Shown: positions 26,652 to 61,157 of the stretch, in pieces | Position numbering within the stretch: the first letter of the stretch is position 1 | Layout: every line of letters starts with the position of its first letter | DNA from: Armatimonadota bacterium | Lineage (GTDB): Bacteria > Armatimonadota > Fimbriimonadia > Fimbriimonadales > Fimbriimonadaceae | Length of the DNA stretch: 64,000 nucleotides | Assembly: GCA_025360125.1 (NCBI GenBank) | Contig: JANYCU010000035.1 | Coordinates: forward strand, 1-64,000 | Reading direction: 5' to 3' | Translations under genes and position numbers: made by a program | Notes under the pieces: model-generated | Told to the model about the DNA's origin: nothing | Databases searched by the model: none | What the model saw: the letters and a program-made list of their open reading frames with translations, nothing else

Positions 26652-27284
26652 ATGATTTCAGCCGCCCTCGCACTTGCCTTACACTTTAATACCGTTGACG
26701 ACTTTTCGTTCAAGCGAAAATATGTGGCGAAAGCTGAGTCAAGTTATACGGTTACGATGGCCTTTCCCGGGGGTGGCGGAGCGGTCAAAGCAAACATTGT
26801 CACGACAGTGCAATCGGTAGAAGCCGACGGTGCGACGGTCCATCTCAAGGCGACGAGTATCGACCTGCCTGGTTTCCCTGCGACTGATGCGTTGCCCGAC
26901 CTTGTCACAAAAGTCGGCGTATTGGGGCTGCCAAATAAGGCGACGATAAAGAGCGGACAAGAGTTCATTGTGTTCCTCGGCATGGCTAGCATGACCACGG
27001 GCACTGTGGTCAAATTGGGCGATTCGGTCAAGGCTCATTGGCAGAACGACCAAAAGGATTGCACGCTTGACGGAACCGGAAAGATCGCGAAGTTTGATCC
27101 AGATACCAAGACATTGACGGTCGATTGGAAAGTCGACATGAAGCCCAGCTATACCGAAGGAGGAACTTTTGTACTCCACAGCGCTTACTCAACAACCGAC
27201 TTCAGCCTCAACAAATCGGAAGGCACGTTTGAAATTGGTGGTTCCTCGATGAAACTGCAGTTTGAACGAAAAGCAAAGAGCTAA
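26652..27284 (+). CDS. hypothetical exported protein
   Basis: A 210-residue protein with a short hydrophobic N terminus (MISAALALALHF) that may be a signal peptide. The body is beta-rich with repeated Thr/Val/Lys strands; the region KIAKFDPDTKTLTVDWKVDMKP and the final GTFEIGGSSMKLQF suggest a lipid-carrier or beta-sandwich fold. No family assigned. Its stop overlaps that of the convergent EAL gene by 4 bases. Confidence 0.5.
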   Translation: MISAALALALHFNTVDDFSFKRKYVAKAESSYTVTMAFPGGGGAVKANIVTTVQSVEADGATVHLKATSIDLPGFPATDALPDLVTKVGVLGLPNKATIKSGQEFIVFLGMASMTTGTVVKLGDSVKAHWQNDQKDCTLDGTGKIAKFDPDTKTLTVDWKVDMKPSYTEGGTFVLHSAYSTTDFSLNKSEGTFEIGGSSMKLQFERKAKS

Positions 27285-29809
27285 GCCGCCTTTGGTGTGT
27301 CGGTGTTGCCGCGTTTCACGAACTCTTCAAAAGAAAGCGGCTTGGCGAAGTAGTATCCCTGGCTAAATTCGACTCCATGGTCGGCCAAGAATTGATATTG
27401 CGACTCTTGTTCGATTCCTTCGGCAACGATCTGAAGGTTCAGGGCCCGAGCCAAACGCACAATGGTTTCCAAAACGTTTTCTTGTTTGGGGTCAACTCCG
27501 ATGCCGTCAACAAATCGCTTGTCGATCTTGAGGCAGTCAAACGGCAGGTTGGCCAATGTCGCAAGTGATGAGTAGCCCGTTCCAAAATCGTCAATCGCCA
27601 ACGAGAACCCGGCTTCTTTGAGCTTGTTGAGCATGTCGAGACAGATACCCGAGTCGCCCATGATGGATGATTCTGTGACTTCAACCATCAAGTTCTTGTG
27701 GGTGATTCGATACTTCTCAAGGGTGTGCTCCAAGAACGTCAAGGTCGACTGATTTCTCAGCTGCAGTTGCGAGATATTGAAGCTCACCATGATGTCTTCT
27801 TGTTTGGTTTGAGCGATGTAGTCGCGAACGGCTTTCGCGGCTTCTTCGATGACGAATCGTCCGAGGTCGTTAATAAAGTCAGTTTCCTCGGCAATTGGAA
27901 TAAACGTGCCCGGCGAAATTGGGCCAAACCGACTTGAATTCCAGCGAAGAAGAGCCTCGGCCTTCACCAGCTTCTTCGTCTTGTTGCAATAGATCGGTTG
28001 GAACATCAAGTAGAATTCGTGATCGGTCAGCGCCTGTCGCATGGCGGTTTCTAACTCGACTCGCATCTTCGATTTGAAGCTCATTTCTGGTTTATAACAG
28101 ACTGGAGTATTGTCTGCTCCCTTTCGGGCATATTCTAATGCTAGTCCGACTTTTCGATGAATGGAAATTGCGGTTTCGTTTTCTGTGGCGGTGACGTAAC
28201 CAAGCCGACAATCTTTCGGAATCTCGACCCCGTTCACCACCGTTTGCTTCTGGCAAACATTGGCGATGACGTCAATTAACGAAAGCAATGAGTATTGATC
28301 TGGAACGATGATCGTAAAATCATCTCCACCGGGTCGGCCAACGATTCCGTTCGACCCAACGACTTCGACCAGTTGGGAACCAAACTCATGCAGCAGTTTG
28401 TCAGCAAGATCGGCTCCCCACGATTCGTTGATGTTCTTAAAGTTACCGATTTCGATGCCTACCACGCTGATGGTTGGATTAGTCAACAACAATTCGTTGA
28501 TGACTTCATGGATTCGCGCCCGATTAATGAGCCCAGTTACGGTGTCGTAATACGCCAGTTTTCGAATTTCATCGTTTCGTTTCTTAGCCTCGGTCACGTC
28601 ACGGACGAATCCGTGAATTGACACACTTCCGTCTGGTTCATATTCAAAATCAAGCTTCTCTTCAAACCAAAGCTCATGGACGTCGGTTACATTGATGCGA
28701 TATTCGGTCGTGACGGTTGGCAGCTTTTGGCTAAACGCAAAACCGAGTAGCTTTTCCCACACGTTCTGATCGTCGTGGTTTCGGCGTTCGCTCCAAGCTT
28801 CGGCGAACTTTTGGCCCTTATTCATATCAGCAACAAGCCAATCAAATGACGGCGTAAATTCGAGATTTCCTTCCCAATCTAAGCGGCCCGGAGATCGAAA
28901 AGCTCTGCCGTCCCAGACAATACAGTCTGCTCGGCCGAGAGTACGAATGAGGGAGTTGGTTGCTTCTTCGCTGAGGCTCAATGCTTGACTCATCTCTTCG
29001 CGAGTTGAATCTAGTTTTTTGCGTTGCTGCATTACTTCGGCTTGTAAATTGCCATGTTCGCGCCGCGAGAACCACAAGAATAGATATGCGATGAGAGAGA
29101 TGATCAACGATACGAGCCCCGTTGCACAGAGTCCGTAGTAAAAAGAACCTAGGAGGGCGGAGGAATCTTCCTCATAGCCGTCAAACCGCATGTCCACACC
29201 CAGGACGGCCAAAACCTTTCCAGATTTAGCCTTGATCGGATAGTATGCGGTGACAAAACTGCCCAGTTCGCTTGAGCGAGGCGTACGTTCAACAACTGGC
29301 TTGCCTCGATAAAACGTCCGCATCAGTTCTACTGAAGGTCCGTTCACTGGTTGATTGACTGACGCCGAGTGGTGCGGATCGCCCGTCCTAGCGCGCTTTC
29401 CACCGTCAACCACATAGAGCGGGCGACCATTCTTAAGGTTTAGCGTGTAAACCCGATAAGCATCGGGATAGTTCTTCAAGAAATGTTGAAGAACTTTTTT
29501 GGTTGCGGCATAGGCTTTGGTGGTGTTCGCCGGATTTGCGGCAATGGAACGTTGTGACTCGGGGTTGATGGACCGACTGAGGTAGCCCGTCGCTTCTCGA
29601 ACATGTTGAACTCGGGTCTCGAAAAGTTGGTTTTCGGATCGGCTATAAACAATTAGACAAGAAATACTGCCACCAAGGAAGGCGACCAAGAACACGAAAA
29701 ACGCGACCCGAACCTCAAAGCGTCCAACAAGTTGGCGTCGCCATAGGCTGGCACTTTTCGCTTCTTTAAAAGCAAACCCCTGACTTACTGGACTCGTTTG
29801 TCGTTTCAT
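27281..29809 (-). CDS. membrane sensor with degenerate GGDEF and intact EAL domain
   Basis: An 842-residue c-di-GMP signalling protein. Order: membrane helix about 28-50, periplasmic sensing domain about 55-215, second helix about 222-246, coiled and PAS-like region about 250-410, GGDEF-like domain about 415-560 with GGDDF in place of GGDEF, and EAL domain about 590-830. The EAL domain keeps EALLRW, NISQLQL, VEVTESS, IDDFGTGYSS and KIDKRFVDG, so phosphodiesterase activity breaking down c-di-GMP is likely. The GGDDF site may only bind GTP or be weakly active. It is divergent from flhA, with 186 bases between. Confidence 0.88.
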   Translation of the reverse strand: MKRQTSPVSQGFAFKEAKSASLWRRQLVGRFEVRVAFFVFLVAFLGGSISCLIVYSRSENQLFETRVQHVREATGYLSRSINPESQRSIAANPANTTKAYAATKKVLQHFLKNYPDAYRVYTLNLKNGRPLYVVDGGKRARTGDPHHSASVNQPVNGPSVELMRTFYRGKPVVERTPRSSELGSFVTAYYPIKAKSGKVLAVLGVDMRFDGYEEDSSALLGSFYYGLCATGLVSLIISLIAYLFLWFSRREHGNLQAEVMQQRKKLDSTREEMSQALSLSEEATNSLIRTLGRADCIVWDGRAFRSPGRLDWEGNLEFTPSFDWLVADMNKGQKFAEAWSERRNHDDQNVWEKLLGFAFSQKLPTVTTEYRINVTDVHELWFEEKLDFEYEPDGSVSIHGFVRDVTEAKKRNDEIRKLAYYDTVTGLINRARIHEVINELLLTNPTISVVGIEIGNFKNINESWGADLADKLLHEFGSQLVEVVGSNGIVGRPGGDDFTIIVPDQYSLLSLIDVIANVCQKQTVVNGVEIPKDCRLGYVTATENETAISIHRKVGLALEYARKGADNTPVCYKPEMSFKSKMRVELETAMRQALTDHEFYLMFQPIYCNKTKKLVKAEALLRWNSSRFGPISPGTFIPIAEETDFINDLGRFVIEEAAKAVRDYIAQTKQEDIMVSFNISQLQLRNQSTLTFLEHTLEKYRITHKNLMVEVTESSIMGDSGICLDMLNKLKEAGFSLAIDDFGTGYSSLATLANLPFDCLKIDKRFVDGIGVDPKQENVLETIVRLARALNLQIVAEGIEQESQYQFLADHGVEFSQGYYFAKPLSFEEFVKRGNTDTPKAA

Positions 29810-29995: not shown

Positions 29996-32059
29996 ATGCA
30001 AGGTTTCGCAAAGATTTTAAAACACACCGACATCATGATGGGTGTTGGACTGCTTTTGGTGGTCTCCATGCTGATCCTTCCACTGCCCCACTGGGCGGTT
30101 GACCTTGGATTGGTATTTGCGATCGGATCGTCGATCATGATCCTGTTAACATCGGTTAATGTCTCTGATCCCCTTCAGTTTTCCGTCTTCCCTTCGCTCC
30201 TTGTTGTCACGACCCTCTTCCGGCTCGCTTTAAGTATTGCCGCGACGAAACTGATCCTGGGAACCGGACAAGCAGGACACGTTATTGAGACGTTCGGAAC
30301 CTTTGTCATGGGCGGCAACTTTGTCGTCGGAATAGTCTCGTTCATTATTCTCGTCATCGTTCAGTTCGTCGTCATCACCAATGGTGCTGGACGAGTTTCG
30401 GAAGTCGTCGCTCGGTTTACGTTGGACGCAATGCCCGGTAAGCAAATGGCGATTGACGCTGACCTTGCCGCCGGACTCATTGATGAAGACATGGCGAAAG
30501 AACGGAGAAAGCACATCCGAAAGGAAGCGGACTTTTATGGTGCGATGGATGGTGCATCTAAGTTCGTAAAGGGCGACGCCATTGCTTCGATCCTCATCAT
30601 CATTGTCAACATCATCGGCGGATTTGCGGTCGGCTTTTTCAAGGGTCAAAGCGACCCAATTACCATCTTAAAGACATACGCTTTGCTTAGCGTTGGTGAG
30701 GGGCTTACCGCACAGCTCCCAGCTTTGCTCATTAGCTCGGCCAGTGGCCTTTTGGTCACTCGTGCGGGGCAAGACCGAACAATGGCGGGTGAAGTCGCAA
30801 CCCAATTCTTCGGGCAGCCGAAAGCTATTTTGGTTGGTTCAGTTTCGATTGCCGCTTTTGGACTTGTTCCGGGCTTCCCTGCGACCATCTTTATGGGTGC
30901 AGGTGCGGCAATGTACTTCCTGTATAACTTTGCCAAAAAGAATCCCCAAGTCGCCACGATGTTTGATACGGTGGTTAAAGAGAAGCCAGCTCCGGCACCT
31001 CCTCCGGCTCCGACTGGCCCAGAAGCGGTATTGCCTCTTCTCCAAGTTGATCCAATTGAAGTCGAGATTGGCTATGGGTTGACGAAACTGGCTGACCCGA
31101 AAGTTGGCGGTGACCTGAGCGACCGTATCGCGGCCACCCGTCGACAAATTGCGACCGAACTTGGTTTGGTTATGCCAACCGTCCGAATTCGGGACTCGGT
31201 TCAACTTTCCAATTTCACCTACGTCATTAAGATCCGCGGCGAAGAGGTGGCTACTGCTGACCTCATGCCTCACCGTTTGTTAGCCGTCAACAGTGGTGAT
31301 GCCCTCGAATCGATTCAGGGTGTTCCAACCATCGACCCAGTCTTTAAAATGGATTCGTTGTGGATCGACCCCGAACAACGTGAAATTGCCGAGCGTGCAG
31401 GTTATACGGTAATCGAGCCAAGTGCGGTCATTTCAACTCATCTCAGCGAGCTAGTCAAGAACCATGCTCCAGGGCTTTTGAGCCGTCAAGATGTTCAAGT
31501 CTTAATTGATGAAGCGAAGAAATCGAACGCAGCAGCAGTCTCAGAAGTCATTCCCGACATCATCTCGATCTCTGATGTTCAAAAGGTCCTTCAGCACCTC
31601 TTGCGCGAGCGGATTCCGATTCGTGACATGGTCACGATTATCGAAACACTGGCCGATTTTGCGGGTCGGACTAAGGATGTCGAGCAACTAGGTGAAGTCG
31701 TTCGTTCGGCGATTGCCCGAACGGTTACCCGCCAGTATGTCGACTTCGAGGACAAGCTTAAATGTATCACTTTGGATCCTCCGCTTGAGCGGGAACTAGC
31801 CGACCTGGTCAGCTTAACATCAGGAGGAACCGCCCTTGTTTTGCCGCCAGATATGCAGTCTCGATTGGTTCAACACCTGAAGACTGAGTACGACCGATTG
31901 ACGATGCAAGGCTTCCAGCCAGTGTTGTTGTGCGGTGCCCAGCTTCGATTGGCGATGAGACGATTCTTGGATCGTCATATTCCGAATCTCCCGGTCTTGG
32001 CTTACAGTGAAATCTCGGCGAAAGCCGAGGTTGAATTCGTCGGTCAAGTCGCGGCTTAA
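29996..32059 (+). CDS. flhA: flagellar type III export gate protein FlhA
   Basis: A 687-residue protein, the normal FlhA length. The N-terminal half has eight membrane segments and the FHIPEP-family signatures FPSLLVVTTLFRLALSIA, GRVSEVVARFTLDAMPGKQM and ADFYGAMDGASKFVKGDA; the C-terminal half is the cytoplasmic nonamer-forming domain (PVLLCGAQLRLAMRRFLD). FlhA uses the proton gradient to drive flagellar protein export and docks chaperone-substrate complexes. No other export genes adjoin it, so the flagellar set is scattered; a flgM-like gene is at 59196. Confidence 0.93.
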   Translation: MQGFAKILKHTDIMMGVGLLLVVSMLILPLPHWAVDLGLVFAIGSSIMILLTSVNVSDPLQFSVFPSLLVVTTLFRLALSIAATKLILGTGQAGHVIETFGTFVMGGNFVVGIVSFIILVIVQFVVITNGAGRVSEVVARFTLDAMPGKQMAIDADLAAGLIDEDMAKERRKHIRKEADFYGAMDGASKFVKGDAIASILIIIVNIIGGFAVGFFKGQSDPITILKTYALLSVGEGLTAQLPALLISSASGLLVTRAGQDRTMAGEVATQFFGQPKAILVGSVSIAAFGLVPGFPATIFMGAGAAMYFLYNFAKKNPQVATMFDTVVKEKPAPAPPPAPTGPEAVLPLLQVDPIEVEIGYGLTKLADPKVGGDLSDRIAATRRQIATELGLVMPTVRIRDSVQLSNFTYVIKIRGEEVATADLMPHRLLAVNSGDALESIQGVPTIDPVFKMDSLWIDPEQREIAERAGYTVIEPSAVISTHLSELVKNHAPGLLSRQDVQVLIDEAKKSNAAAVSEVIPDIISISDVQKVLQHLLRERIPIRDMVTIIETLADFAGRTKDVEQLGEVVRSAIARTVTRQYVDFEDKLKCITLDPPLERELADLVSLTSGGTALVLPPDMQSRLVQHLKTEYDRLTMQGFQPVLLCGAQLRLAMRRFLDRHIPNLPVLAYSEISAKAEVEFVGQVAA

Positions 32060-59195: not shown

Positions 59196-59489
59196 TTACC
59201 GCATTCGATCGGCAATTGCTCGCCGGATCATCGTGTCCACGATGTCGTGGGAGGACGGGTTATATTCACCAGCTTCGATCTTTGCCTTGAGAGAAGCAAC
59301 CATCTCTTCTCGGTCGGGCATATCGAGGACTTGTTTGGTGAGATCTTTGACGAGTTGCGCGTCGCGTTCAGATGCATCCTCATCGGTCTCGACTCCGAGA
59401 ACGACTTTGAGGTTCTCATCTTGAACATCAACTTCTGGAGCGGTAAAGCCGCTCAATGCCTTTTTTACTTCCGTATCTGAAATCCGCAT
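59196..59489 (-). CDS. flgM: FlgM-like anti-sigma-28 factor
   Basis: A 97-residue acidic protein with the FlgM layout: an MRIS start, a disordered middle and a C-terminal helical region REEMVASLKAKIEAGEYNPSSHDIVDTMI, matching the sigma-28-binding pattern (LKxxIxxGxY...IAxxI). FlgM holds sigma-28 inactive until the hook is complete and is then exported. The upstream region supports this: a sigma-28-type promoter (59634-59661) and a GEMM-I riboswitch (59511-59612), with AAGGAAA ahead of the ATG. Confidence 0.78.
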   Translation of the reverse strand: MRISDTEVKKALSGFTAPEVDVQDENLKVVLGVETDEDASERDAQLVKDLTKQVLDMPDREEMVASLKAKIEAGEYNPSSHDIVDTMIRRAIADRMR

Positions 59490-59510
59490 TTTATTTTCCT
59501 TGCTCGATTC

Positions 59511-59612
59511 CAGACAGGCAACCCGGCTTTCTTATTTTCGGTTCGTGAGAACCAAAAACAGACCCTTAGGCTTTGCGTGATCGAGGTCACCCTCGTCGTG
59601 CCATTTTCTGTC
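59511..59612 (-). promoter_or_regulatory. c-di-GMP-I (GEMM-I) riboswitch ahead of the flgM-like gene
   Basis: On the minus strand, in order: GGCACGA, a stem CGAGG-GTGA-CCTCG with a GNRA loop, CACGCAAAGCC, GGGTCT, a stem TTTTGGTTC/GAACCGAAAA and AAAGCCGGGTTGCC. The GGCA and TGCC ends pair. The GNRA stem, the CGCAAAGCC core and the GCCGGGTTGCC strand are the GEMM-I hallmarks. The ribosome-binding site lies 22 bases after the closing stem and no terminator is seen, so control of translation is more likely than of termination. GEMM-Ib variants sense cGAMP; I cannot decide the ligand. Confidence 0.82.
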
Positions 59613-59633
59613 AGAGACTTTCGTCTATAAATC

Positions 59634-59661
59634 TTATCGGTACCGTCTTCTTGAAACTTTA
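59634..59661 (-). promoter_or_regulatory. sigma-28-type promoter of the flgM-like gene
   Basis: Minus strand TAAAGTTT (59654-59661), 12 bases, then ACCGATAA (59634-59641), against the FliA consensus TAAAGTTT-N11-GCCGATAA. Transcription would begin about 15 bases before the riboswitch. Confidence 0.7.
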
Positions 59662-60520: not shown

Positions 60521-60781
60521 ATGATTATTACTGCAACTGAATTTAAGGCCAAGTGTCTCGAGTTGATGGATACGGTCAATCGAACCGGAGAGGTATTGCA
60601 AATCACGAAGCGTGGCAAGGTCGTGGCCGAATTACACGCGCCCGATGAAAAGAAAATATATGGCCCAGGATTTGCTAAGGGAGAATTTACAATCATTGGG
60701 GACATCATGGCCCCGTACGATGTCGAGTGGGAAGCAATGAGAGATGACGCCACTGTGGAGCCGAGAAAAATTGGTGATTGA
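60521..60781 (+). CDS. Phd/YefM-family antitoxin
   Basis: An 86-residue protein with the Phd/YefM N-terminal DNA-binding fold: ITATEFKAKCLELMDTVNRTGEVLQITKRGK-type pattern, in which FKAKCLELMD and EVLQITKRGKVVAEL are characteristic. The C-terminal part, which would wrap the toxin, is variable. It overlaps the PIN toxin gene. Expected to repress its own operon and neutralise the toxin. Confidence 0.8.
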   Translation: MIITATEFKAKCLELMDTVNRTGEVLQITKRGKVVAELHAPDEKKIYGPGFAKGEFTIIGDIMAPYDVEWEAMRDDATVEPRKIGD

Positions 60782-61157
60782 TACCCATGTTTTGATCTGG
60801 TATGCGGAGAATAATCCCCTCCTCAACCCAGACACCCGGGACAGATTGAACGAACACCAGAAAAATGTCGTCGTTTCTTCAGTTTTGCTTTGGGAACTCA
60901 TGCTACTTGTTGAAAAAGGGCGCATCGACGCAAATGGAAAAACGCCAGAAGAGTACGCGAGAGGACTCTTTGAGCGATCAGGATTTCGCGAAGAACCCTT
61001 AAACGCAAGCATGGCGATTCTAAGCCGCGCTTTGCCCTTTCGACATGAAGACCCGGCGGACCGATTTATTGCTGCAACGGCAATCTTCTTAAACCTTCCT
61101 CTTGTCACATATGATCAAAAGCTGATCGAACTACCTTGGCTTAAGACGGTTTCCTAG
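60774..61157 (+). CDS. PIN-domain (VapC-type) toxin
   Basis: About 127 residues from GTG 60774, overlapping the antitoxin by 8 bases; ATG 60744 would add ten unlike residues. PIN motifs: VIDTHVLIWY (first Asp), SSVLLWELMLL (Glu), HEDPADRFIAATA (Asp pair) and LVTYDQKL. All acidic residues of the RNase site are present. It would cleave RNA when free of antitoxin. Pairing of PIN toxins with Phd antitoxins is well known. Confidence 0.82.
   Translation: MIDTHVLIWYAENNPLLNPDTRDRLNEHQKNVVVSSVLLWELMLLVEKGRIDANGKTPEEYARGLFERSGFREEPLNASMAILSRALPFRHEDPADRFIAATAIFLNLPLVTYDQKLIELPWLKTVS

Follow-up and report, generated by a model that had tools for sequence, protein, structure and literature searches.

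The flgM locus in the window

The minus strand of the window, the whole stretch of 64,000 nt that was analysed, carries between 59661 and 59196 a sigma-28-type promoter, a c-di-GMP-I (GEMM-I) aptamer, the sequence AAGGAAA and a gene for a FlgM-domain protein, in that order. All of the parts named in the initial annotation were found in place on this strand. The promoter (TAAAG-N15-ACCGATAA; 59634-59661, minus) agrees with the consensus at 12 of 13 positions and is the same site as the one annotated earlier as TAAAGTTT-N12-ACCGATAA; it is of the TAAA..GCCGATAA type looked for in a sigma-28-dependent gene, and transcription would be expected to start near 59627 on the minus strand. The Shine-Dalgarno sequence AAGGAAA, already recognized ahead of the FlgM-like start, is located at 59495-59501 (minus), within the sequestering hairpin described below. 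The flgM-like gene (59196-59489, minus) forms a single-gene unit, its downstream neighbour converging on it and its upstream neighbour diverging from it. Further upstream, at 60521-61157 on the plus strand, a Phd/YefM-like antitoxin gene scoring just below the Pfam cut-off is followed by a PIN-domain gene, probably as a type II toxin-antitoxin pair.

The 97-residue product, which had been described as FlgM-like, matched the Pfam FlgM family PF04316 with 38.3 bits (cut-off 25) and fell short of the NCBIfam FlgM equivalog TIGR03824 (23.3 bits against a cut-off of 40.75), with an E-value of 8.4e-5 that points to a divergent FlgM-domain protein. On the basis of the Pfam match, the product would be an anti-sigma-28 factor. 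The source genome (4.13 Mb) encodes a FliA ortholog (TIGR02479, 231 bits, cut-off 189.6), flhA, four flagellin-type genes and nine GGDEF domains. The EAL phosphodiesterase candidate and the flhA gene that had been noted in the window are both present, but at a distance of about 27-30 kb from flgM. The EAL protein also carries one of the GGDEF domains; this 842-residue GGDEF-EAL protein (27281-29809, minus) adjoins the flagellar gene flhA (29996-32059) and may act as a c-di-GMP enzyme. At five of five loci, with and without flagella (L201, L194, L195, L202 and L198), fliA was followed by a small secreted gene with the look of a peptidyl-prolyl isomerase (VNGE..I motif).

A c-di-GMP-I aptamer in the flgM leader

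The GEMM-I RNA proposed for the leader was matched by the covariance model RF01051 at 59514-59612 (minus), where it barely reached the gathering score (35.9 versus 35 bits), with E-values of 0.0024 in the 64-kb window and 3.6e-5 in a search of the whole 4.13-Mb genome, in which it was the sole match. Relatives score as high as 72 bits within the order and 91 bits within the phylum. The minus-strand RNA comprises the P1 5' strand GACAG (59608-59612), the sequence GGCA, the first G of which is position 20 (59599-59602), a P1b hairpin of a local variant with a GUGA (GNRA) tetraloop and a bulged A (59579-59597), the core ACGCAAAGCC that is conserved in the aligned sequences (59569-59578), the second stem-loop, P2 (59530-59564), and CTGTCTGGAATC (59506-59517), in which the P1 3' strand (CTGTC) overlaps the 5' arm of the sequestering hairpin. 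The GEMM-I core features GGCA, CGCAAAGC and a GNRA-capped P1b are all present in the window, and CGCAAAGC was invariant in 40 aligned sequences. The bulged A in P1b is carried by the Fimbriimonadaceae aptamers and is probably part of the reason for the low Rfam score. RNAalifold predicted only three pairs on an automatic alignment of the aptamers, all with changes on both sides, and claims of covariation are therefore based on the start hairpin.

A predicted hairpin at the flgM start

From the P1 3' strand onward the leader reads TGTCTGGAATC (59506-59516, minus), which is complementary to GATTTCAGATA in codons 2-6 of flgM (59474-59484, minus). The hairpin predicted from these two arms encloses the Shine-Dalgarno sequence and the ATG, and its full coexistence with P1 is impossible. 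Among 27 genomes with the start hairpin, the sequences of which were picked for forming it, so that both of the following counts are biased, the arms kept one fixed register, with 90% of cells paired compared with 28-48% when slid by 1-3 positions, and double compensatory changes were seen at four of the 11 hairpin pairs, a count found in 5 of 1000 shuffles. Codon use provides evidence for the hairpin that is independent of how the 27 were selected. At codon 4, 25 of the 27 genes spell serine as TCA, a codon used for 9 of the 103 serines at other positions of these genes; at codon 3, 23 of the 27 use ATT for isoleucine, compared with 57 of 191 at other positions. At codon 4, G011 has TCC and G036 has TCG instead, and both exceptions are compensated by changes in the leader (TGTCGGAAAT and TGTTCGGAG).

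When 45 leaders were folded without ligand, 35 showed predicted pairing between the P1 3' strand and the start region with a probability above 0.5 (the value for the window is 0.81). Forcing P1 in the window came at a cost of 5.5 kcal/mol, a gap that ligand binding could fill. When P1 was forced to form, predicted accessibility of the start increased in 40 of the 45 leaders, from a mean of 0.45 to 0.52, with a gain of more than 0.1 in nine, and part of the start hairpin could survive in the predicted folds. The fold change, and even its direction, are uncertain given this surviving part and the modest gain in accessibility.

The hairpin is absent from one subgroup of the family (G020, G023, G026, G029, G034 and G035). 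In other families the partner of the P1 strand is the Shine-Dalgarno sequence or its flanks, for example as TGCCTCC/GGAGGCA or CTGTCC/GGACAG. At four loci of distant families (L217, L218, L220 and L223), a TTTGCCTTTTT-like stretch 3' of the aptamer is predicted to pair with the aptamer's own AAAAAGGCAAA and may represent a different, anti-aptamer platform. Transcription termination was also considered as the platform in the window and was ruled out, since no terminator-like site was found on the minus strand in the leader.

Conservation in the order and the phylum

The initial annotation had suggested that the same leader be sought ahead of flgM in relatives, and the arrangement proved to be common throughout the phylum. 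A sample of 61 genomes, drawn at the levels of genus, family and order (Fimbriimonadales), gave RF01051 matches in 52, in every case just upstream of flgM or of a divergent flgM; the Rfam gathering score was exceeded in 42 of the 61 genomes, and a few of the 52 matches fall under it. Conversely, 45 of the 46 Pfam-positive flgM genes in this sample were preceded by a match, the exception being G022. The genus g23 had appeared to carry the aptamer without a FlgM match, but this exception was ruled out, as all seven of its genomes have a downstream FlgM that is too divergent for Pfam.

A second sample consisted of 251 genomes spread over the Armatimonadota. Outside the order, at least 49 further adjacent aptamer-flgM pairs were present among the matches listed, from 49 genomes and at least 10 families, with a spacing of 166-263 nt. 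Nine named Armatimonadota loci, including members of the Chthonomonadaceae and Capsulimonadaceae, have a match above the cut-off before flgM. Despite the marginal Rfam score in the window, the arrangement is thus more than chance, with 52 of 52 matches in the order and at least 49 more pairs in the phylum. GEMM-I is not specific to flgM in the phylum, since many other genomes carry several matches. In other phyla, RF01051 gave no match before flgM at the four loci checked, and the viral contigs searched contained no relative. Among the matches listed, five genomes of the same family (G228, G232, G245, G263 and G022) have flgM without an RF01051 match, either because the aptamer has been lost or because it falls below what the search filter lets through. 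One contig (L138) filed as a Methanoregulaceae archaeon has a flgM gene of the Fimbriimonadaceae type and is probably mislabelled or from a mixed bin.

The promoter is also widespread. Most flgM leaders of the order have a sigma-28-like site with at least 11 of 13 consensus positions, a level reached by 8 of 234 control stretches, and in most relatives the similar sites lie mostly 150-190 nt upstream of flgM. A sigma-28-like site was also present upstream of most of 20 distant aptamer-flgM pairs. A strict genome-wide promoter pattern gave matches at chance level only and missed the flgM promoter itself, because it required G or C before CCGATA, and so yielded no sigma-28 regulon. Upstream regions of the flagellin genes contained mostly weak sites, with 8 to 11 of the 13 positions. 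The promoter ahead of flgM would fit a feedback in which sigma-28 transcribes its own inhibitor and c-di-GMP decides on its translation.

The unit in relatives without flagella

Neither FlhA nor flagellin was detected in 12 of the 61 genomes of the order sample. Six of these (G003, G004, G007, G012, G019 and G032) have GGDEF domains, and all six keep both flgM and its aptamer; the remaining six (G006, G010, G013, G014, G052 and G054) have no GGDEF domain, and all six are without the aptamer and flgM (Fisher 0.002, kinship ignored). Completeness of the latter genomes is below 90% for G006, G052 and G054 and at least 98% for G010, G013 and G014, which together form one very long branch of the FliA tree. 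The flagella-less carriers of the switch are placed on at least two branches of the same tree (G007, and G003/G004/G012/G019). In both groups of six, then, it is c-di-GMP synthesis and not flagella that the unit follows.

The promoter consensus was unrecognizable at its usual place in G003, G004 and G019, and in G019 (locus L197) fliA is frameshifted, possibly through an assembly error, while the aptamer and flgM are intact. The lost consensus and the frameshift may indicate decay in part of the G003/G004/G012/G019 clade. A cultured relative, Fimbriimonas ginsengisoli Gsoil 348, has a 5.23-Mb chromosome with one fliA and many pilus genes and shows no motility (PMC4072686).

Proposed mechanism and alternative explanations

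The suggestion of the initial annotation that c-di-GMP sets synthesis of the anti-sigma factor is supported by the covariance-model match and by conservation of the arrangement beside a single gene across the phylum; the expression platform, the predicted ON direction, the persistence of the unit without flagella and its absence where GGDEF proteins are missing go beyond that annotation. Taken together, the leader probably contains a c-di-GMP-I riboswitch through which FlgM translation is switched on, so that high c-di-GMP would shut the sigma-28 regulon. FliA (sigma-28) would transcribe flgM from the sigma-28-type promoter of that gene. Without c-di-GMP, the P1 3' strand and the next nucleotides would pair with flgM codons 3-6, and the resulting hairpin would hold the Shine-Dalgarno sequence and the ATG. 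Binding of c-di-GMP would close P1 and deprive the hairpin of part of its 5' arm, FlgM would be made, and FlgM would keep FliA inactive. We infer the ON direction, for which the argument is good; FlgM would also have to bind FliA and affect the regulon, and c-di-GMP would in this way be linked through FlgM to sigma-28.

The identity of the ligand depends on the first G of GGCA, position 20, where G specifies c-di-GMP and A specifies 3',3'-cGAMP. The window has G there, as do 20 of 20 distant aptamers checked and, with the sole exception of G004, the other sequences listed, which points to c-di-GMP as the ligand of the window aptamer. It is very improbable that the RNA instead responds to 3',3'-cGAMP or to both dinucleotides, as GEMM-Ib riboswitches with A20 do; the A at position 20 in G004 speaks for this, but aptamer presence also follows GGDEF genes, with the proviso that hybrid cGAMP synthases are GGDEF proteins too. 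The aptamer of the flagella-less G004 (L057:1477-1555), the sole one of the set with A20, may itself have changed its ligand towards cGAMP. A switch working in the opposite direction, in which c-di-GMP reduces FlgM and so releases sigma-28, perhaps for a sigma-28 regulon needed on surfaces, is also improbable, if less so. Riboswitches of this class can be OFF switches, as is Cd1 before the flgB operon of Clostridioides difficile (PMC5386303), and the small gain in start accessibility upon P1 formation leaves room for this; however, one strand is common to P1 and the start hairpin, so that closing P1 can only weaken the hairpin, and the use of the same P1 strand against the Shine-Dalgarno sequence in other families and the lack of a terminator-like site on the minus strand of the leader also speak against an OFF switch. 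An OFF switch would moreover raise motility with c-di-GMP, contrary to the usual logic.

A separate question, compatible with the ON-switch mechanism, concerns the regulon. The circuit could be a flagellar-timing device only, the flagella-less cases being relics of recent flagellar loss, as the missing promoter consensus in three of these genomes and the broken fliA of G019 would suggest. This is rather unlikely: every one of the five genus members that lack flagella has an intact aptamer, start hairpin and FlgM frame, these genomes stem from two or more separate branches in the FliA tree, and it is from the flagella-less genomes without GGDEF that the unit is missing. We tentatively put forward, as an idea that may well prove wrong, that FlgM-FliA in the Armatimonadota is primarily a switch read by c-di-GMP and not an assembly checkpoint, serving another regulon of surface life where there are no flagella. 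That regulon might then be type IV pili, in parallel to RsiG-WhiG.

Significance and relationship to known systems

No paper on a c-di-GMP riboswitch with flgM, or on riboswitches in Armatimonadota, was found in the open-access literature searched, and an earlier listing in a supplement is possible. Throughout the phylum, a known class of riboswitch is put to a real and apparently undescribed use on the gene for the anti-sigma-28 factor, the new elements being the target of the aptamer class, the regulatory logic and, in the Fimbriimonadaceae, an unusual platform that pairs with the start codons. Conservation across the phylum, and retention after flagellar loss in some members, make it appear that the messenger is wired into a master gene switch; the unit appears old and seems to outlive the flagellum. 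If the proposed mechanism holds, c-di-GMP would reach a whole sigma-factor regulon in one step, through an amount of anti-sigma factor set by RNA, and the leader would be a clear case of a riboswitch expression platform constraining early codons. Fimbriimonas ginsengisoli, which is cultured and non-motile, probably offers a way to test the role of a flagella-free sigma-28/FlgM pair.

The closest riboswitch is Cd1, which precedes the C. difficile flgB operon, with sigD. It belongs to the same class, and there too a leader RNA lets c-di-GMP act on the regulon of a sigma-28 family factor (PMC5386303). Cd1, however, is an OFF switch that terminates transcription of the early flagellar operon encoding sigD, whereas here the aptamer lies between a sigma-28-type promoter and a lone anti-sigma gene and is predicted to activate translation. 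The flgM gene of C. difficile is an ordinary sigma-D-dependent late gene, unlike the riboswitch-led flgM described here. Vc2 of Vibrio cholerae has been described as an ON switch (PMC12564702). The aptamer shares the family RF01051 with Vc2 and the other c-di-GMP-I riboswitches, and differs in the bulged A of the Fimbriimonadaceae P1b, in the pairing between the P1 3' strand and the first codons and in the target gene.

In the RsiG-WhiG system, c-di-GMP controls a FliA-family sigma factor via an anti-sigma factor, and in Rubrobacter such control reaches type IV pili, outside flagellar motility (PMC8325347). The likeness is that c-di-GMP governs a FliA-family sigma factor through its anti-sigma factor; the difference is that there the protein complex itself binds c-di-GMP, while RNA control of FlgM synthesis is predicted here. 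RsiG is also not known to be related to FlgM. With the checkpoint of the classic enteric system, in which the flagellum exports FlgM, the locus shares the FlgM domain and the position of flgM behind a sigma-28-type promoter; here, by comparison, synthesis is predicted to be gated by RNA, and some relatives are without the export gene flhA. Were the pair primarily a switch read by c-di-GMP, the riboswitch would give FlgM-FliA the input that flagellar export gives elsewhere.
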